From positions 1 through 43,189 of the IMG/VR virus record IMGVR_UViG_3300009538_000029: a stretch of 43,189 bases of DNA; one strand, 5' to 3'. How positions within the stretch are numbered: position 1 is the first letter of the stretch; every line of letters begins with the position of its first letter. The stretch is from a virus. Positions 18,177 through 27,224 of the stretch are shown here, piece after piece. The notes below the pieces were generated by a model. That model made no database searches and was not told the origin of the DNA. It was given only the letters and a program-made list of their open reading frames with translations. The translations under genes and the position numbers were made by a program.

Positions 18177-19358
18177 TTACCTCGCCGCTTCGAGCTGTTC
18201 CACTTGAAACTCCAACAGACCGACGGACTCCGCGATCGACGGCGCCTCTTGGCTCAGGTCCATGTCCGTCAGCACGCCGTTGTCATCCAGCGTGTAAGTC
18301 GCCACCCCAAGCTGATAGCCGAACTCGCCGCCGTACTTCTTGCCGGCCGCCCCGTACTTGAACGTGCCGTACTTGTTGACGAACACCCCTGACGTCACCG
18401 CGATCTGCCCGATGGGTGTCGCCACCTCCAGCCGGTTGCGGCGAAGTGCGACCGACAGCGTTGAGCGGCGCACGGGGATCGCTTTCTCCGCCAGCAGCGC
18501 GTTGAGGTAGCTGTTGCCGGTTGGATTCGTCGTGATCGACGGGTTCGTGATGATCTCCTCGCGCAGCCCCCATGAGCTCTGCGAGCCGGTATCCTCCCGG
18601 GTCGTGCTGAAGGCCGGGCTGCCGCCGCCCTTGAGATAGAGCCGGTTCTTGACCCGGCTGTAATCGATGAAATCCTCAAAGCGCACGACGTCGTGCCCCG
18701 GGATGAAGCGGTGCTTGATCGTGCTGCTCTGCGCTCTGAAGAAGAACTTGCGGTCGGTGCCCACGCCCCATTCGCGCGTCCCGACGATGGTTGCGATGGT
18801 TTTGAGGGCGTTGTCCGCGTAGGTGTCGAACTTCAAGCTCTCGCCCGCCTGCAGGCTGACTCCGGTCGCATCGATCAGGGTCGTGTCGTAGAGAATCTTC
18901 GAGTTGGGTGCGACGATGGTCTGGACGATGTCCCGCACGATCGTCTCCAGGCTCTCCTGGCTGTTGTAGGTCTTACTCACCCGGATCCAGCCGAGTTGCG
19001 CGCCGTAGCCCGCGCAGATCACGTCGATGCTCTCCGGATCGTCCAGGCTCGGCGCGATCTGCTGGATGAGGCCGCGGTACCAGAGGTCATAATTCCCGGT
19101 GGCGCGATTGGAGATGAGCAGCTGGACGTCATAGGTGCCGTCAATGTCGCCCTTCGCGTCGTACGGCCGCGAGAGCTTGAAGCGCAGCGTCCCGCATCCG
19201 CCGATCCGCCGGTACTCCCACCGAATGCTTGAGGCCTCATTGTCCGGCTCGAAGATGTCCACCAGCGTGAACGCCTTGTTGCGCAGCTCGATGCGCCACT
19301 GGAAGACGTCGTTGGTGATTTCAAATGGGATGATCGCGTCACGGAAGACTGCCGGCAT
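18177..19358 (-). CDS. Baseplate hub/tail-associated protein (ReqiPepy6 gp37-like)
   Basis: This 393-residue protein resembles gp37-like tail proteins, which carry a gp27/Tal-type hub fold. It has FTLVDIFEPDNEASSIRWEY and GTLRFKLSRPYD near the N-terminus, DLWYRGLIQQIAPSLDDPES near residue 95, SIDVICAGYGAQLGWIRV near 112, and LKFDTYADNALKTIATIVG near 180. Such proteins cap the tail tube and bridge to fibres. It is followed 3 bp later by a fibre gene. Its distance from Dit (six genes) is unusual. Confidence 0.7.
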   Translation of the reverse strand: MPAVFRDAIIPFEITNDVFQWRIELRNKAFTLVDIFEPDNEASSIRWEYRRIGGCGTLRFKLSRPYDAKGDIDGTYDVQLLISNRATGNYDLWYRGLIQQIAPSLDDPESIDVICAGYGAQLGWIRVSKTYNSQESLETIVRDIVQTIVAPNSKILYDTTLIDATGVSLQAGESLKFDTYADNALKTIATIVGTREWGVGTDRKFFFRAQSSTIKHRFIPGHDVVRFEDFIDYSRVKNRLYLKGGGSPAFSTTREDTGSQSSWGLREEIITNPSITTNPTGNSYLNALLAEKAIPVRRSTLSVALRRNRLEVATPIGQIAVTSGVFVNKYGTFKYGAAGKKYGGEFGYQLGVATYTLDDNGVLTDMDLSQEAPSIAESVGLLEFQVEQLEAAR

Positions 19359-19723
19359 CAGGTGACCTTGTTCACGTTCTCCACACGGATAATGAACTCA
19401 TGGTTGTTCTTCTTCGCATCGCTTGACCAGCCGAGCTCGAAGAGTGCGATATGCTCTTCGTAGCTCAGGGTCGCGTCGATGATCGGGTTATCGGCCGGCT
19501 CTATCGTCCAGGTCAGATTGCCGCTGTCATCGATCGTGACGCCGTTGGCGTTGAGCACGTTCTGCTGATTGCGGCTGTTGATGATCGCGCCATCCGCCCG
19601 GTTGTAGAGCGTTAGCTTCAGGGAGGAGATCACCCCGCCGCCGATCGCGGCACCAGTCTCATCCTTCAGCGCGGCCGTGTAGCGCCGCGTCGTCTTTTCC
19701 CGCACGTTGAAGATCGCCGCCAT
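19358..19723 (-). CDS. Small beta-rich tail/baseplate protein
   Basis: The 121-residue protein is beta-strand-rich: TRRYTAALKDETGAAIGGGV, SLKLTLYNRADGAII, SGNLTWTIEP, HEFIIRVENVNKV. This resembles the Ig-like or BppU N-terminal domains that attach baseplate or fibre proteins. Its stop shares one base with the hub gene start, which supports joint translation. Confidence 0.6.
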   Translation of the reverse strand: MAAIFNVREKTTRRYTAALKDETGAAIGGGVISSLKLTLYNRADGAIINSRNQQNVLNANGVTIDDSGNLTWTIEPADNPIIDATLSYEEHIALFELGWSSDAKKNNHEFIIRVENVNKVT

Positions 19724-19735
19724 GATCGACTCCTG

Positions 19736-20989
19736 TCAGGCCACGCTTTCGCTGCCGGGCGCCGGATCCGCCAGCGCTTCGTCGGCCAACCTCGGTCCGC
19801 TCATGGCCTCGCTCGCCAGTGCGCCGCCGGCCATCGCGACGTCGCTGAGGCGGAGGAAGATGATCACGCCGCGCGCCTCCCACGGGATGTCGCGGTCCCC
19901 CAGCACCGAGCCATCCGCGCTGAGCGGGATGAGGGTGTTTCCGATGACGACCGCCAGCGCCTCCACGAGCAGGATGCGGTGGCCGGACATCACCATCAGC
20001 GCGTCCCACAGCGGTTGCGCATCCTGCGCCAGCGCCATCAGCGCTTCCACCAAGATCAGTCGATCGGCCGCCGTCGTCCCGAGCGCGTCCCACGGAATGG
20101 CTCGATCCCTATGGAGAGCGCCCAGCGCCTCCCACACTGTTGCGCGCTCGCCAGCGCCTACGCTCAACTGCTCGAACGGCATCACGCGATCCATGGCTCC
20201 GAGGACTGACGCCTCCCATACGGTCAGACGATCCAGCGTGATCGCCCTCAGCAATTCCCAGAGCGTCCGCCGGTCGATGGAGACGACCCCCAATGTGTCG
20301 TAGAGCATCTGATGGTCGCCGAATCCGATGCCCAGGCTCTCCCATGGCTCGATGTGATCAGCGGTTCCGAATCCGAGCGCCTCCCACAACGACTGCCGAA
20401 CTCCAGAGGCTGGGCTGAGGGTCTCCCATGGCGCAGCCGCATCCTCGAACACCGCCGGGCTCGTCGCATCCCATGGCACGCGCTGCTCGACATACCGCTC
20501 ATTGAGAACTTCCCATGGCATGAGCCGATTGAGTAGGATCGGACTGGCGCTCTCGTACGGCACGACGCCGTCCACCAGCAGCGCACTCGATATCTCCGAA
20601 AGGATGCTGTGATCAGCGAGCGCTGGACTCAGCACCTCGAAAAGCAGCGCGCGACCTTCCTGCAATAGGCGCACGACGTCCCATGATTGAATCCGATCCG
20701 CCATCGCTGGACTGAGATGTTCACATGGGAGGCTGCGATCCAGCGCTGACAGGCCCAGCGACTCCCAGGGGAGTGCCTCGTCATGTTCAGCCAGCGCGAG
20801 CGATTCAAACGCGAGGCGATCGTCACGCTGCACAGGAATCGTGCTCGTCGTCTGTTGGTGCTGGATGACCGCTGGAAGCCCGAAGAGCCAGCGGCTCTGT
20901 GCGCCGAGGTTGAACTGGTCCGTGTGGTATTGGAGGATGGCCGGAAGGCCGGAGACCCAACGGTCCTGTGTTCCGAAGTTGACGGCCAT
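19736..20989 (-). CDS. Repeat-built structural protein (23x14-residue W-E/D repeats)
   Basis: This 417-residue protein lies among tail fibre genes. Three repeat classes fill it. Residues 4-48 hold two copies of a 23-residue unit (QDRWVSGLPAILQ and QSRWLFGLPAVIQ). Residues about 58-373 hold 23 units of 14 residues, each with an aromatic or aliphatic residue followed by E or D. The marker positions are 61, 75, 89, 103, 117, 131, 145, 159, 173, 188, 202 and so on to 370, with a single 15-residue step (173 to 188). Residues 381-410 hold three units of 10 (LSDVAMAGGA, LASEAMSGPR, LADEALADPA). ATG at 20989 overlaps the upstream stop as TGATG. No family is recognised; probably a fibrous virion component. 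Confidence 0.75.
   Translation of the reverse strand: MAVNFGTQDRWVSGLPAILQYHTDQFNLGAQSRWLFGLPAVIQHQQTTSTIPVQRDDRLAFESLALAEHDEALPWESLGLSALDRSLPCEHLSPAMADRIQSWDVVRLLQEGRALLFEVLSPALADHSILSEISSALLVDGVVPYESASPILLNRLMPWEVLNERYVEQRVPWDATSPAVFEDAAAPWETLSPASGVRQSLWEALGFGTADHIEPWESLGIGFGDHQMLYDTLGVVSIDRRTLWELLRAITLDRLTVWEASVLGAMDRVMPFEQLSVGAGERATVWEALGALHRDRAIPWDALGTTAADRLILVEALMALAQDAQPLWDALMVMSGHRILLVEALAVVIGNTLIPLSADGSVLGDRDIPWEARGVIIFLRLSDVAMAGGALASEAMSGPRLADEALADPAPGSESVA
19870..20818 (-). repeat. 42-bp-period coding repeats (14-residue units)
   Basis: The region encodes 23 degenerate units of 42 bp. The core often reads PWEALG or PWESLG with a DR pair 9-10 residues after the Trp. CCATGG recurs at many Pro-Trp positions. 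The nucleotide copies are diverged while the protein phase is kept, suggesting an old array under selection. Confidence 0.8.
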
Positions 20990-22881
20990 CACGCGACCTC
21001 GACGTCATCGACGCCGATGTCACCGGTCGTCGCGCCGTCCTTGGCCTCGAAGACGACACGGCAGAAGCCCGTCTGCGATGGGGTGACTGGCGTCGCCGCG
21101 TACTGCGCCCAGCTATCCGTCAGCGTGACGCTCTGCGCATCCAGCAGCTTCGTCACCTCGTCGGCGTCATACATGGTGCACGTCAGCGTCGGATTGGCGG
21201 CAGATGAGGTTTTCCGGACGTAGGCCTTCAACGTAAACGCCGTCGCCGCCGTGACCGGCACGTAGAACTCCCACCGGAGGCCGTTGGTTTGGGAGCTGGG
21301 ATTCAGCAGCAGCGCAAGCCCGTCGCCGCCCCGCGCCCAGTTGGCCGCCTGGCCGCCGGTGATATGGTCCGCGACCACTCCGTAGCGGAATTGGCTGGCG
21401 TGCCGGTCGGCCACTTGCCCGAGGTGGGTGATCTGCACCGCGTAGTGCTCCTGGAGCGCCGTGGCGATCGCGCTGTCGATGCTCACCTTGGTCGTGGAAC
21501 TGAGCTTGCACCAGGCGCCGATGAGAAACGCCGCAGCGCGCCCGGTGAGCCGAATGTCGGCGGAGGTGTTCGCGGTGGGATCGCCCAGCGTGTTGTTGTC
21601 GAAGCGTCGGCACCACGAACGGTCGAGGCGGATGCCATAGACTGAGCAGCCCCAAATGACACACCCGCTGAACTTCGTGATGGTCTCGCAGGAGGTGACC
21701 TCGAATCCGTCGCCCGTCTGCGCGTAGATCCAGTTGTCGTGCAGCTCGGTGTAGCCATACGCTGAGCCGCCCGCCTTGATGCCGCGATCCCCCGACCCCC
21801 CGCCGCAGGCGATGACCCAGTTGCCGGAGCAGAGCAAGTTTTGCTCCCAGGTCCGGCCGTTGTCGCCGGTTCCCACGAGAATCCCGCTGCCCGAGGTGCA
21901 GTTGAGGATCACGTTGTCCTTGATGTTCGTGTCCGTGATCGTGGGCCCGGCAAGGCTGAAGCCTGCGCCGTGGTTGTAGACGACCGTCTTCTGAATGTCC
22001 CACTGCGGCTCGTTGCCGGACTCGGCCGCTCTGGGTGTGCCGCCGTCGAACACGCAGCCCAGCAGGATCGCCCCGGAGTTGCTGCCGTAGTAGGTGGAAA
22101 TCGCGCCGTTGTACGACCAGTGGCCGCTGTTGCCTTTGAGGTTCTTGAAGCGGACCCACTGATAGAGCACGTTTTGGCCGCTGACGCCGCTGCCGCCGGT
22201 GTTGATGTTCGTGCCGTAGCTGTCGTTGTAGTTCGTAATGAGGATGTTGCGCGTCAGGTGAACGACCGGCGTGCCGGCCTCGTGGGTGTACGTCAGGTTG
22301 GCGTTCAGCGTCACCTGATTGCCGGCGATGGATTGAATCGTGCGCGCTTCAGTCTGCGACTTGGTGGTGTTGGCTGTGGCGATCACGAGCTCATCGCCCA
22401 CGGCCCAGCCGGTCGCATCCGCGACGTTGATCACGGCTTGCCCGGAGGCGGCCTGCGCCGTCAGCGTGGTGCGATAGGATGTCGCGTACGGACGTCCGTA
22501 GAACTTGAGCAGGCTGCCGTTCATGCGGAACTCGTTGGCCGCCAGCGTCGCCGAGTAGTTGAGCTTGATCGTGAATTTCCTGGCGGAGTCGAGCGGGGAG
22601 CCGGAGGAGGCGATCTCGAAGCCGCCGCCGTTGCAGTTCAGATCCCCCTTGCAGGTCAGCGTGTAGTCGGCAGCCGGGCTGCTCGGCAGCACGAGCTTGC
22701 CGGTCCCGCTCATTTGAATGGCGGGCGTTGATGTGTCTGCTCCGACGGTGATGTTCTGGTTGATCGTGACGGTGTGACCGGTCTGGATCGTGACTGTATC
22801 GCCCTCGCCGGGAACGACACCGCCCGTCCACGTGCCGGTTGCCGACCAGTTGCCGGAGGCGGCGGAGGTTATCGCTGCCAT
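20989..22881 (-). CDS. Right-handed beta-helix tail spike/fibre with C-terminal jelly-roll domain
   Basis: The 630-residue protein starts with a G8-like domain (SGNWSATGTWTGG, VPGEGDTVTIQTGHTVTI), continues through a long Asn/Gly-rich region typical of parallel beta-helices (about 150-460, for example LHDNWIYAQTGDGFEVTSC), and ends near residues 505-630 in a carbohydrate-binding-module-like beta sandwich (LRWEFYVPVTAATAFTLKAY, then VFEAKDGATTGDIGVDDVEV). Beta-helix tail proteins commonly bind or cut surface polysaccharide, so a depolymerase is possible; no catalytic residues can be assigned by eye. The ATG at 22881 overlaps the upstream gene by 13 bp, with GAGGT before it. Confidence 0.75.
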   Translation of the reverse strand: MAAITSAASGNWSATGTWTGGVVPGEGDTVTIQTGHTVTINQNITVGADTSTPAIQMSGTGKLVLPSSPAADYTLTCKGDLNCNGGGFEIASSGSPLDSARKFTIKLNYSATLAANEFRMNGSLLKFYGRPYATSYRTTLTAQAASGQAVINVADATGWAVGDELVIATANTTKSQTEARTIQSIAGNQVTLNANLTYTHEAGTPVVHLTRNILITNYNDSYGTNINTGGSGVSGQNVLYQWVRFKNLKGNSGHWSYNGAISTYYGSNSGAILLGCVFDGGTPRAAESGNEPQWDIQKTVVYNHGAGFSLAGPTITDTNIKDNVILNCTSGSGILVGTGDNGRTWEQNLLCSGNWVIACGGGSGDRGIKAGGSAYGYTELHDNWIYAQTGDGFEVTSCETITKFSGCVIWGCSVYGIRLDRSWCRRFDNNTLGDPTANTSADIRLTGRAAAFLIGAWCKLSSTTKVSIDSAIATALQEHYAVQITHLGQVADRHASQFRYGVVADHITGGQAANWARGGDGLALLLNPSSQTNGLRWEFYVPVTAATAFTLKAYVRKTSSAANPTLTCTMYDADEVTKLLDAQSVTLTDSWAQYAATPVTPSQTGFCRVVFEAKDGATTGDIGVDDVEVA

Positions 22882-23330
22882 GCGTACCTCGTGTCTGCCT
22901 TCAGCTCGGTGATTAGCGCTGCGAGCTTTGCGCGGCGATCCTGAATCTTCGTGCGCAGCGCCGCGATGGCTGTGTTATGCTCCGCGTCGGTTTGGCCGGG
23001 CTGTTTGCCGAGGCGCTCGATGTCCGTCAGCTCCGCAAGTTGCTGCGCTTCCTGGTCGAGGGCCCGCTGGCGCAGTTCCTCCATCACGGTGTCTCGATCC
23101 ACGAGCGCTCGCGGATTGGCGACCCCGTCAGCTGACAACGCACTCGCCCAGATGCCGACGATATCCCGGTCGTGCTGCAGCTTCTTGAGGTAGTCCGAGA
23201 GCGCCGCATCTTGCTGAGCCGTGCGCGATGGCAGCGCCTGCAAGACGTCCGCCCGCTGGCGGATCTCCAGGTACTGGATCTCCGTCTCGTAGAGTTGGCG
23301 GACGAGCAGGGCTCGTTCAACGGCTGTCAT
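22869..23330 (-). CDS. Coiled-coil structural protein, unknown
   Basis: This 153-residue protein is almost entirely helical and charged (ALLVRQLYETEIQYLEIRQR at the start, LRTKIQDRRAKLAALITELK at the end), likely a coiled coil. It lies between two virion protein genes and may be a fibre chaperone or connector. No family is recognised. Confidence 0.6.
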   Translation of the reverse strand: MTAVERALLVRQLYETEIQYLEIRQRADVLQALPSRTAQQDAALSDYLKKLQHDRDIVGIWASALSADGVANPRALVDRDTVMEELRQRALDQEAQQLAELTDIERLGKQPGQTDAEHNTAIAALRTKIQDRRAKLAALITELKADTRYAWQR

Positions 23331-23337
23331 GGGCGCC

Positions 23338-24321
23338 TTATGTCGTGTTGCCCGTCAGTCGCAGCGTGTAGGTGCTATCCTGCGGGCTGTCGCCGGCCGC
23401 CAGGCTCAACTCGAGCCAGACCCCGATCGTCTCGCCAGCCGCCAAGGAATTGGTCGGCACGGCCTTGGTTGCGCTGTCGAACGTGATCCCGCTCGGCGCC
23501 ACCTGCCGGTTGTTGCCGGCGCCATTGCCGCCGGTGTCGCCCTTGCTCGCCGGCAGCCCGAAGGCGATCTTGCCGGTCGGGTCCGCCTGCTCGACCACCT
23601 GCGCCGTCGTCAGGCTCAAGGTCCCGTGCGTGTTCTTGAAGAACAGCTTGTCGTAGTACTTCCGCGTGCCGCTCGTCGGCGCCACCGCGTTGTAGAACGG
23701 CCGGCGGATCTCGGTGGTCTCGGCTGGGCTCTTGTCGAAGACGCAGCCTTGGCTGATCCGGAAGGTCGACGTCGCATCCGGGTTCGTGCCCCAGTTGGCA
23801 CCCACCGTGGCGACCTTCGTCGCTCCCACATAGCCGATGATTTCCCGGATCTGGTTCGCGCCGGTACCGCCCGTCAACCGGATGACCATCCCCTTGTAGT
23901 AATCGTCGGTCGCGTTGGCACCCGCATCGAGCGTGATCGTGTTGGCGCCGCCGGCTTGCGCCGTGCCGGTGCGCTCCGCCGTCACCGCCTCGATGGCCAC
24001 ATCGCCGGTCGTGCTCGCGGACTTGACGGCCTTCAAGATGCGCTCCCAGTTCGTGTTGGTGGTCATGGCGACCGGGGTCGTCCCGCTCAGCGTCTTGACC
24101 TCGCTGATGATCGCCCCGCCGGCGTCGCGCCCGCTGATGGTCACGGTCTGCGTCGTGTCGCCGGCTGCGCTCGAGACGATCTGCAGGTTGCCGGTGGGGT
24201 TGATATCCTTGAACTCCACCTTCTTGCTCGTGGCGATCGCGCCGCCGATGTTCTGCGTCGTATCGTCATCCGGCATCGTCGCCGAGCCGTAGAGTTTCAG
24301 ATCGCCTGGACTGATGGACAT
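23338..24321 (-). CDS. Structural tail/fibre protein
   Basis: The 327-residue protein is Thr/Gly-rich and beta-rich: DLKLYGSATMPDDDTTQNIG, TQTVTISGRDAGGAIISEV, KVATVGANWGTNPD, and SLAAGETIGVWLELSLAAGD near the C-terminus. This composition is usual for upper baseplate or fibre proteins that sit beside Dit. I recall similar proteins in other siphovirus tail modules, without a known name. Confidence 0.65.
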   Translation of the reverse strand: MSISPGDLKLYGSATMPDDDTTQNIGGAIATSKKVEFKDINPTGNLQIVSSAAGDTTQTVTISGRDAGGAIISEVKTLSGTTPVAMTTNTNWERILKAVKSASTTGDVAIEAVTAERTGTAQAGGANTITLDAGANATDDYYKGMVIRLTGGTGANQIREIIGYVGATKVATVGANWGTNPDATSTFRISQGCVFDKSPAETTEIRRPFYNAVAPTSGTRKYYDKLFFKNTHGTLSLTTAQVVEQADPTGKIAFGLPASKGDTGGNGAGNNRQVAPSGITFDSATKAVPTNSLAAGETIGVWLELSLAAGDSPQDSTYTLRLTGNTT

Positions 24322-24342: not shown

Positions 24343-25083
24343 CTAGACATACCGATCCCGCCACTCGGTGACGACCGCGACGGTGATGCCTCCCGTGTAC
24401 TTCAGGATGTTGGCCCCGACGGCCAACTCCCAAAACTCGCCTTGCCAGTTCGTCAAGTCTTCGACTCCGGCGTTTTGGATCGAGCGCGCCTGCATGTCGA
24501 TGATCAGGGTGTTGGCATTCTTGAGCGTGCCGGTGAAGACCAGCGCTTTGCTGAGCGTCAGGTTCTCGATCTTGAGGTTGTTGACGATGTCCGCGCCGGA
24601 GTTGTTCGTGATGCGCAGAGTCGGCCGCGTGCGGATGCTGCCGCCGGGTGTCACCGTCCACTGGGTTGGTGAGACGCTCACCGTCTGGCTGTTTGAGTTC
24701 AGCGCCACGGACTGCAGGAACGGCAGCTCTCCGATGAAGGCCAGGTCGTACTTCGCGGCGAGCATCCCGGAGCCGGCCACGAAATCGTCCGCGTAGCTGG
24801 TGAGCTGGCAGTCGATGAAGCGATCGTCGAAGAGGGTGAGTTTGTCCCGCGTCTTGAATAGCGCGGCCTTCATGGCGTCGAACTCCGTCCGCAGCAGCGT
24901 GTTCGAGCTCTTGAAGATTCTGCCGGAGAGTGTGACCTCCAGCGGCCCCAACAGCGCGATGTCCGCCCGCACGCCGTCGCGGCGGGGAATGAGGATCTGC
25001 TTCACGCGCGGCCGCTGGCGGAGGGCATATTTCTCGGTCGTTGTGCCGAAGTTGTAGGCCCCGAACATCACCGAGACGGCCAT
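24343..25083 (-). CDS. Distal tail protein (Dit-like)
   Basis: The 246-residue protein lies directly after the tape measure and shares one base with it, the standard position of Dit. The N-terminal half (SVMFGAYNFGTTTEKYALRQ, LEVTLSGRIFKSSNTLLRTE, MKAALFKTRDKLTLFDDRFI) matches the ring-forming Dit domain. The C-terminal half is a beta sandwich typical of the Dit galectin-like part. Dit forms the hexameric platform between the tail tube and fibres. Confidence 0.75.
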   Translation of the reverse strand: MAVSVMFGAYNFGTTTEKYALRQRPRVKQILIPRRDGVRADIALLGPLEVTLSGRIFKSSNTLLRTEFDAMKAALFKTRDKLTLFDDRFIDCQLTSYADDFVAGSGMLAAKYDLAFIGELPFLQSVALNSNSQTVSVSPTQWTVTPGGSIRTRPTLRITNNSGADIVNNLKIENLTLSKALVFTGTLKNANTLIIDMQARSIQNAGVEDLTNWQGEFWELAVGANILKYTGGITVAVVTEWRDRYV

Positions 25084-27224
25084 CAGCGCTGCACTCCCGC
25101 CGGCATCATCTGGCGGATGTCGATGATGCGGCCGATCTTCCGGGCGAGCTCATGGGCAAACTGATCGATGTTCTCCGCGGTGTTGATCAACGCCTTGTCG
25201 ACCTGTACGGTGACGTTGACGACTGTCTCGCCGAAGCCACCTCCGGCCCGATCGAGCGGCACCACCGCCTCCGGGCCCGCTTCCCCGATGAGCGCCAACG
25301 TCGGCTCCGTGATGATGCCCCCGTGCTGCATCTTCGGGATGGTTCCGCCGGCTGCGCCGGCGAACGCGTTCACCGCGCCCGCCGTCACGCCGAGCGCGCC
25401 GCCGATGGCGATGGGCGCCTGGATGGCCGCGGCCCCGAGCGTCGCGATGGTGGCCAGCACCGCCGCGGGCAGCCAGGCATTGGCGATCGCACCCGCCGTG
25501 GTCGCAATGAACGCGCTGAAGATCAACGAGAAGGCCTTGGCGACCAGGAGTTGGGCGACGTACTCGGCGACGAACTCCACGATCGCGCGGATGATCAGCT
25601 TGCCGAATTCCTTGAAGGCTTCGCTCGCACTCTTGGTGCCGAGGATGATGTCGCTGATCGCCGTGCCGAGCCCATCCGCGATCGTTTTCGCGGAGACCTG
25701 GACGAAGTTGGAAATGAAATTGCGCATGCTCCCGAAGCCTTCGCCCCACTTCTGCTTCAGGCTCTCGAGGAAGGCGATGAGCCCATCGCCGAATCCCTGG
25801 ACGGTTTGGTTCATGGCATCGAACTGCACCTGCATGTCCTGCGCCATTTGCGCGAAGGCCGCCTGCCAGACGATCTGCGCCTCCTGCGCTTGCCCGGTGA
25901 TGCCCTCGAGCAACTGCGGCGGCAAGCCCCCACCACCGCCAGCGCCATCAGCTCCTGCCGCACCGCCCCCGGCGCCTGTCGCACCCCCGAACAGTCCCGT
26001 GCCTTGCAGGCTGTCGGTGAGCGGCTGGAAGAAAGCCTTCGCGTCCTCTCCGACGTTCGAGAGCGAGTTCTTGAGGTTGTCGATCGAGTCGTTGGCGAGC
26101 CCGTCCACGGTCTGCCGTAGCTGATCCACCTTGTTCGCCAGGAACTCGAAGCCGCCTCCGATGAGCGGCAACTTCGCCAGCAGCTCCAACAGCCGCTCCA
26201 CGGCCGTGATGACGAAGTTGATCGCGGCCAGGAATGCCGATTCCAGGGCATCCGCCACGAGGGTCAGGACGTCGTCGAAGTTCACGAAGGCGAACCACAG
26301 CGCGACGACCGACGCGGTCAGCGCCAGCACCTCCGCTGCGAGCACGGCCAGGTCCGCCAAGAGCGGCAGAATGATGATCGTGAGCGCCTTGAAGGCGGTG
26401 ACCAGTTGTGGCCAGAAGGTGAGGATCGGGGCTAAGGCGAGTGCGACGAGTCCAATACCACCGGCGAGCTGCACCATCGCGGCCGTCAGCTTCGGGTGCG
26501 CCTTGGCGAAATCGTCCGCGCCTCGGGTGGCACTGGCGAGCTGCTTGACGAGATCGGTCAGCCCTGGTAGGAGCACGTTGCCGATCGTCTCGGCGAGATC
26601 ATTGACCGCGTTCTTGAACTGCGTGAGTCGCCCCTCGAAGGTGGCCGCCTGCGCCTCCGCGGTCCCGAAGAGCGTCAACCCCTTCGCCATGATCGTTTGG
26701 AAGCGCTCCTGCTGGGTCGCGTTCGCGTCGAACTGCACCCCGAAGCGCCCCAGGCTGTCGGCTGAGCCATCGATCGCCAGCGCCACGCGCCGTGCGGCGG
26801 AGTCGAGATCAACGCCGAGGGCCGCTGCAAAGCCGATCGTCGCCTTCGTCGCCTCCTGCAGGGCAGGCCCGGAGAGGTGCCCGAAGTTGACGAGGAGCGC
26901 CTGCATGCGGGTGATCGCGTCATCGCTGAAGGCGGTTGTGCGCTGCAGACTCGCGGCGAAAGCGAGCTGGCTCTGGAGTGCGGCCTCCGTGAAGGTGCCG
27001 GTGTTGCGCATGGCGGCCGCCAGCGATTCGGTCGCCTGCTGCTGGTCGGCTGCGGCTTTAACGGTGAGCGCGATGGCGCCGGTGATGGCGGTCCCAGCGA
27101 TGGCGAGGCCCGCCCCGATGTCTTTCAGAGACTTGTTGAGCGCGTCGCTCTCCTTCTTGATGCCCGCGAGCACCTGCGACGCTGCGTCAACGCCTTCGAT
27201 GATGACTTGAATCCGATCCGCCAT
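25083..27224 (-). CDS. Tape measure protein
   Basis: The 713-residue protein has an N-terminal coiled coil, many hydrophobic helices in the middle (residues about 230-330 and 520-640), and the C-terminal motif GGIITEPTLALIGEAGPEAV then VPLDRAGGG, which marks tape measure proteins. At about 0.15 nm per residue it implies a tail of roughly 105 nm. It follows the G/GT chaperone genes as in lambda-like tails. No peptidoglycan hydrolase domain is visible inside it. Confidence 0.9.
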   Translation of the reverse strand: MADRIQVIIEGVDAASQVLAGIKKESDALNKSLKDIGAGLAIAGTAITGAIALTVKAAADQQQATESLAAAMRNTGTFTEAALQSQLAFAASLQRTTAFSDDAITRMQALLVNFGHLSGPALQEATKATIGFAAALGVDLDSAARRVALAIDGSADSLGRFGVQFDANATQQERFQTIMAKGLTLFGTAEAQAATFEGRLTQFKNAVNDLAETIGNVLLPGLTDLVKQLASATRGADDFAKAHPKLTAAMVQLAGGIGLVALALAPILTFWPQLVTAFKALTIIILPLLADLAVLAAEVLALTASVVALWFAFVNFDDVLTLVADALESAFLAAINFVITAVERLLELLAKLPLIGGGFEFLANKVDQLRQTVDGLANDSIDNLKNSLSNVGEDAKAFFQPLTDSLQGTGLFGGATGAGGGAAGADGAGGGGGLPPQLLEGITGQAQEAQIVWQAAFAQMAQDMQVQFDAMNQTVQGFGDGLIAFLESLKQKWGEGFGSMRNFISNFVQVSAKTIADGLGTAISDIILGTKSASEAFKEFGKLIIRAIVEFVAEYVAQLLVAKAFSLIFSAFIATTAGAIANAWLPAAVLATIATLGAAAIQAPIAIGGALGVTAGAVNAFAGAAGGTIPKMQHGGIITEPTLALIGEAGPEAVVPLDRAGGGFGETVVNVTVQVDKALINTAENIDQFAHELARKIGRIIDIRQMMPAGVQR

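Follow-up and report, generated by a model that had tools for sequence, protein, structure and literature searches.

In a virus contig of 43,189 bases, analysed at full length and referred to here as the window, one gene of the tail region encodes a protein of 417 residues built largely from short tandem units, which raises the question of what this repeat is, how it has been maintained and what the protein may do. Repetitive tail-fibre shafts are already known, and the 14-residue unit described here is new to Pfam, NCBIfam, solved structures and the literature searched.

Repeat architecture of the 417-residue protein

The gene and its parts, all on the minus strand, are as follows.

19736..20989 (-): repeat protein, 417 aa, ATG at 20989, translated without an internal stop
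20822..20989 (-): N-terminal region, residues 1-56, with two QxRWxxGLPAxxQ copies
19853..20821 (-): array of 23 units of 14 residues, residues 57-379
20441..20485 (-): the one unit of 15 residues, residues 169-183; both close relatives have the 15 step as well
19868..19936 (-): degenerate unit LIPLSADGSVLG followed by IPWEARG, residues 352-374, kept in the close relatives
19739..19852 (-): C-terminal segment outside the 14-residue pattern, residues 380-417

A sequence-only reading of this DNA had listed 23 positions at which an aromatic or aliphatic residue is followed by an acidic one, and all of them were recovered at a spacing of 14, with a sole 15 step from 173 to 188. The acidic partner was present in 22/23 units, the exception being L-S at 356, and our counts for the first position (aromatic in 18/23 units, Trp in 13/23) agreed with those given; the description of this position as aromatic or aliphatic held for most units but not for positions 89 and 131, which carry Cys and Ser. 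The unit of the window protein is best written D-R-x-[IL]-P-W-E-A-L-G-x-x-x-x, and IPWEARG is the last unit of the array. Hydrophobic-acidic pairs at lag 14 numbered 18, when 2000 shuffled sequences gave 8 at most over all lags of 5-40; residue identity at lag 14 reached 91/403 (shuffle maximum, 52), peaking at this lag and multiples of it alone (30 at lag 8 vs 91). Tandem Repeats Finder found no DNA tandem array over the gene, and DNA identity at lag 42 was 51, 51 and 41% at codon positions 1, 2 and 3, indicating that the repeat is kept at the protein level. The 14-residue repeat of the window protein is real and is a property of the protein.

Scans of IMG/VR with degenerate DNA patterns derived from the repeat recovered two close relatives, P0002 (L001/L003/L073) and P0003 (L007/L074), which are 53-56% identical to the window protein. 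Unit number varies in this family (23 vs 28), with the phase retained.

Three classes of tandem repeat had been proposed for the protein, of which the 14-residue class proved substantial and the N-terminal pair real, but the C-terminal pair (LASEAM and LADEAL) weak. The N-terminal copies, QDRWVSGLPAILQ and QSRWLFGLPAVIQ, are identical at 8/13 positions by eye, lie 23 apart and are missing from both close relatives. The N terminus of the window protein matched either close relative at 12/53 positions, whereas residues 375-417 were conserved, with 25/43 and 38/43 identities to the two. Trp accounts for 15 of the 417 residues. Lysine is absent from the window protein, numbers 0 and 1 in the close relatives, and occurs 6-26 times in each of eight other structural-block proteins of the same phage.

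Tail module, cassette exchange and rate of change

Terminase, portal, major head protein, minor tail protein, tape measure and Dit genes were all recognisable in the window, indicating a siphophage-type module; the closest portal proteins among cultured phages were ~32% identical (Geobacillus phage GBK2). The repeat gene lies inside this tail module, as its surroundings had earlier been read, between Dit and a conserved downstream block encoding products of 121, 393 and 224 aa, and its start codon shares bases with the TGA that ends the upstream gene (TGATG). The neighbouring features are listed in order.

25083..27224 (-): tape measure protein
24343..25083 (-): distal tail protein Dit
23338..24321 (-): 'KLYGS' gene, 327 aa, whose homologues in L008 and L016 are neighbours of the repeat gene
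22869..23330 (-): 153-aa gene within the exchanged cassette
20989..22881 (-): upstream gene, 630 aa, with a G8 domain (PF10162) above the curated cut-off and weak beta-helix and CBM_4_9 matches
19900..23344 (-): exchanged cassette, where DNA alignment to the close relatives breaks off and then re-enters within the array
19358..19723 (-): conserved downstream gene, 121 aa, with a BppU-like N terminus by eye only
18177..19358 (-): conserved downstream tail gene, 393 aa, in PHROG 6185, where no function is assigned

The 630-aa product is a candidate receptor-binding protein. The N-terminal third of this protein is 34% identical to a region of Curvibacter phage PCA1 annotated hypothetical protein / tail fiber protein. 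Its gene is missing from the close relatives, in which other genes occupy that place, encoding two proteins of 277 aa and one of 109 aa. DNA alignment to these relatives ended sharply at 23344, resumed in the array near 20490-20570 and reached ~90% by 19700, while L073 and L074 have a different upstream cassette in common (85% DNA identity). From this break and the identities at the two ends of the protein, it seems that one block carrying the upstream genes and the N-terminal part was swapped while the C-terminal end stayed in place, the co-variation of the N terminus with the cassette representing one exchange event. Most phage fibres have the opposite arrangement to a conserved C terminus and a variable N terminus, and the arrangement seen here could be just where recombination fell.

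Tail proteins on either side of the repeat gene were highly similar in the window and both close relatives (Dit, 91-96% identical; KLYGS, 94-96%; 121-aa protein, 86-90%; 393-aa protein, 97-98%), whereas the repeat protein of the window was 52-54% identical to theirs. Comparing L073 with L074, which share their cassette, the repeat proteins were 67% identical and the 277-aa neighbour 95%; the repeat protein had a dN of 0.203 and a dN/dS of 0.32, compared with a dN of 0.015-0.055 and a ratio of 0.03-0.13 in its neighbours, with dS at 0.30-0.64 throughout. Across the three phages its dN/dS was 0.32-0.43 vs 0.03-0.18 in the flanking genes. The repeat protein is by far the fastest-evolving of its tail block, and its several-fold faster change at the protein level marks the usual place to seek host-range evolution, although relaxed constraint could alternatively account for the rate.

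Constraint followed the 14-residue phase, bearing out the earlier suggestion of selection on the protein: dN/dS was 0.13 at core positions 1, 5, 6, 7 and 9, a set selected after the consensus was seen, and 0.46 at the remaining positions. Glu7 was nearly fixed (26/28 units; dN 0.03). Position 3 differed in 21/28 units, with a dN of 0.56 vs a dS of 0.27, which we regard as a lead towards positive selection, given ~24 synonymous sites and one position picked of 14.

We somewhat favour the view that the protein is an exposed tail-fibre shaft that joins receptor-binding proteins, which can be exchanged, to the conserved proteins of the tail tip. Its conserved C-terminal end would dock onto the tail-tip proteins encoded downstream, and its N-terminal end would carry or contact the exchangeable receptor-binding proteins encoded just upstream, namely the 630-aa G8/beta-helix protein in the window and the two 277-aa proteins and 109-aa protein in the relatives. 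Incorporation into the virion, fibre shape, oligomerisation, orientation and a role in adhesion are features that we infer for it.

The rates also bear on a rather improbable alternative in which the repeats themselves are the adhesin, a long multivalent surface whose exposed positions track a host glycan or filament, making a separate receptor-binding protein unnecessary. Faster evolution than in the neighbouring putative receptor-binding proteins, dN above dS at position 3 and the richness in Trp would all suit such a surface, but conservation is highest at the aromatic, Glu and Leu positions, a pattern that resembles a core rather than a binding surface, dN/dS of the whole protein is below 1, and a candidate binding protein with G8, beta-helix and CBM matches is encoded directly upstream.

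A wider repeat family and its likely structure

That no named repeat family would account for the unit, as first supposed, agrees with our library searches. The window protein had no match in Pfam (E<=10), NCBIfam (E<=1) or PDB sequences, nor in PHROG, where family 6079 gave none at E<=10, and a Pfam search of P0002 and P0003 returned none at E<=10. BLAST-type searches of phages with the window protein, and of phages and plasmids with P0002 (INPHARED, PLSDB), found no match, and no paper on a 14-residue repeat in tail proteins emerged from the literature searched. Matches of relatives to Phage_CI_repr and Hao_C covered only ~20 residues and were rejected as spurious.

The IMG/VR scans also yielded about ten distant repeat proteins, L008 (also L009 and L010), L016, L018, L019, L021 and L022/L023, with further members in L063, L064, L065/L070 (one contig), L067 and L068/L072. 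Their consensus is D-x-x-I-P-[V/I]-E-W-x-x-x-L-x-x, at a spacing of 14 and occasionally 15-18. A profile built from distant repeats, among them L018, L021, L067 and L068, and leaving out the window family, recovered the window protein (P1) at 4.7e-12, P2 at 2.4e-32 and P3 at 1.5e-31 (E for 1000 sequences), compared with at least 0.24 for shuffled or reversed controls, and the reciprocal window-family profile recovered L021 at 1.4e-31. On these profile matches we treated the window family and the distant repeats as one superfamily, with the reservation that scores of this kind run high for repeat proteins.

Through the relatives a single library family was reached, PHROG 6079, which was matched in the repeat region by L021 (1.7e-13), L018 (2.6e-12), L067 and L068, and also by the close relative P0002 (4.7e-6). 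The distant-repeat profile places a common unit in the window protein and in the proteins matching PHROG 6079, so this family of 605 positions, named 'tail protein' and lacking a repeat definition, structure or mechanism, almost certainly contains the 14-residue repeat, as judged from profile matches. Outside the phage records, scans of GTDB genomes gave no relative: one yielded none that tblastn confirmed, and the 37 matches of another turned out, on inspection of the open frames, to be isolated or of low complexity. Nor did any relative emerge when 397 actinobacterial genomes were searched with a profile. A weak PHROG 6079 match in one actinobacterium (L093) was attributed to chance; the sole long ATG/GTG/TTG ORF there resembles an FAD-dependent oxidase by eye.

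The superfamily is unnamed and scattered widely over phages, with the unit present in phages of several types. In L022 a Baseplate_J gene is located upstream of the repeat, indicating a contractile-type tail. In L008 and L016 the window's 'KLYGS' gene is found near the repeat gene, L008 also having a tail-fibre gene (phrog_4492). This gene (L008:5776-6867; L016:1655-2404; window 23338-24321) is 32-41% identical among three otherwise different phages. Another gene set surrounds the repeat in L063, L018, L021, L064, L067 and L068, which are presumed podophages; among them, L018 and L063 matched a portal family (phrog_156) and a head family (phrog_334). In several of these, the array is preceded by a 16-18-residue VRISAAYAAVLY-type repeat and followed by WxAD repeats, and the protein has an additional N-terminal domain. 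In L067, L068, L021, L018 and L064, VRISAAYAAVLYTDDTTP-type units precede the 14-residue array, and in most of them the WxAD units that follow are often ~9 residues apart.

Placement of Trp differed between the two groups. In the window family, an aromatic residue stood at position 6 in 56/79 units but at position 8 in two, each of which has Leu or Val at 6. Among the distant proteins, Trp occupied position 8 in 253/270 units and position 6 in five, all of them IPWEARG or IPWEALG near the array end with Ala at 8. Such units near the array end were seen in L021, L063, L064, L065 and L067, as in the window array. As Trp is almost never at both positions, 6 and 8 may share one packing site, the independent changes between them being few, perhaps two or three.

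A long solenoid or fibre had been proposed from the gene's surroundings, and two AlphaFold2 monomer runs neither confirmed nor refuted a fold: the window protein (12 rows) and the L067 repeats (13 rows) gave pLDDT values of 34 and 33, with confidence uniformly below 50, and although both models placed about one weak beta strand per unit at ~14-residue spacing, they were not interpretable. Units of the distant group had a hydrophobic moment of 0.46 at 180 degrees vs 0.16 at 100 degrees, a two-residue alternation that is not clear in the window family. This alternation and the low-confidence strands point to beta rather than alpha structure.

The favoured shaft would accordingly be pictured as extended, beta-rich and probably oligomeric, standing at the tail tip of the virion. 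Each 14-residue unit may contribute one short strand, with a predicted buried core of hydrophobic residue 4, Pro 5, Trp or another aromatic at 6, Glu 7 and Leu 9; Asp 1 would serve as an acidic turn residue, and the other positions of the unit would be exposed to solvent. The regularity of the unit makes this a small, testable structural problem.

We consider it unlikely that the protein is instead a flexible, mostly disordered tether or spacer in which the 14-residue pattern represents short linear interaction motifs. The AlphaFold2 confidence would suit a tether, but it is expected equally for an oligomeric fibre and so decides nothing, which leaves the spacings of 15-18 residues that distant relatives allow between units and the weak constraint on spacer positions as the features that such a protein would explain. 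Against them stand the strict phase across 23-28 units in three close phages, the 15 step included, the high and phase-locked content of aromatic and aliphatic residues, and the reciprocal Trp placement, which suggests packing. A non-virion protein, for example an assembly factor or a secreted decoy, is very improbable, because the gene lies with translational overlap inside the tail-tip block and relatives match the 'tail protein' PHROG and sit among structural genes, even if the lack of lysine sets the protein apart from all neighbouring tail proteins checked.

Comparison with known fibre and tail repeats

Short tandem units of beta character, with a fibre role that is proposed here by analogy, would liken the putative shaft to the triple beta-spiral of the adenovirus shaft, a trimeric intertwined fold (PMC8869412), yet the window protein had no sequence match in the PDB. 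The Orsay virus CP-delta beta-bracelet, a pentamer with the eight-residue period (L/V)x2Vx4V (PMC7565637), may similarly be compared as a viral fibre made of many very short beta units, but its eight-residue unit does not fit the window protein, whose period is 14. The only PDB sequence match of the repeat profile, to lysostaphin propeptide repeats, was rejected for their 13-residue period; the alignment needs a gap in nearly every unit, and these repeats, although they have PVE-containing units, consist of near-identical, low-complexity copies.

Two sets of cultured phages carry repeats of equal length, which we recorded, from sequence comparison, as likely analogues. Aeromonas Casjensviridae tail proteins of the tip-attachment-J-like kind end in tandem 14-residue units (BUCT552, MW978786.1, L075:5783-10213, and L097-L101), those of BUCT552 (QVW27843.1) comprising 20 units of ELLAPYNLRSTVQA with one 15 step. 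They resemble the window array in the period of 14, the one 15 step, Pro-aromatic-x-hydrophobic at positions 5-8 and the tail location, but differ in being fused to a J-like protein with PDB matches and in having Asn/Gly in place of Glu; two Aeromonas phages (A18P4 and pAEv1812) have 16-residue units. None of the window-superfamily profiles (A, B and BCD) matched the Aeromonas J-like repeats (P0004). A match of BUCT552 to L018 lay on the antisense strand and was put down to chance, the coding strand holding the genuine 14-residue repeat.

In KVP40-like Vibrio phages, gp15, a tail completion/sheath stabiliser protein, bears a C-terminal extension of 14-residue units (L076:2164-3678, L095:1009-2142 and L096:838-2067) that is missing from the matched part of T4 gp15. 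The extension shares the period and a hydrophobic-x-Trp core with the window protein, but it has no Pro-x-Glu and is fused to a T4-gp15-like domain. The gp15 profile gave a marginal signal (P1 0.002 and P2 0.0033 vs 0.27 for the best control), and the reverse search did not rise above shuffles.

A bolder form of the shaft reading, which we hold to be doubtful, is that the unit forms a fibrous beta fold not described before, which serves phages of different tail types as an interchangeable shaft, that the length of 14 was independently reached in the Aeromonas J-like and KVP40-like gp15 proteins, and that position 3 is exposed and diversifying. Repeats of equal length in cultured Aeromonas and Vibrio phages offer a laboratory way in.
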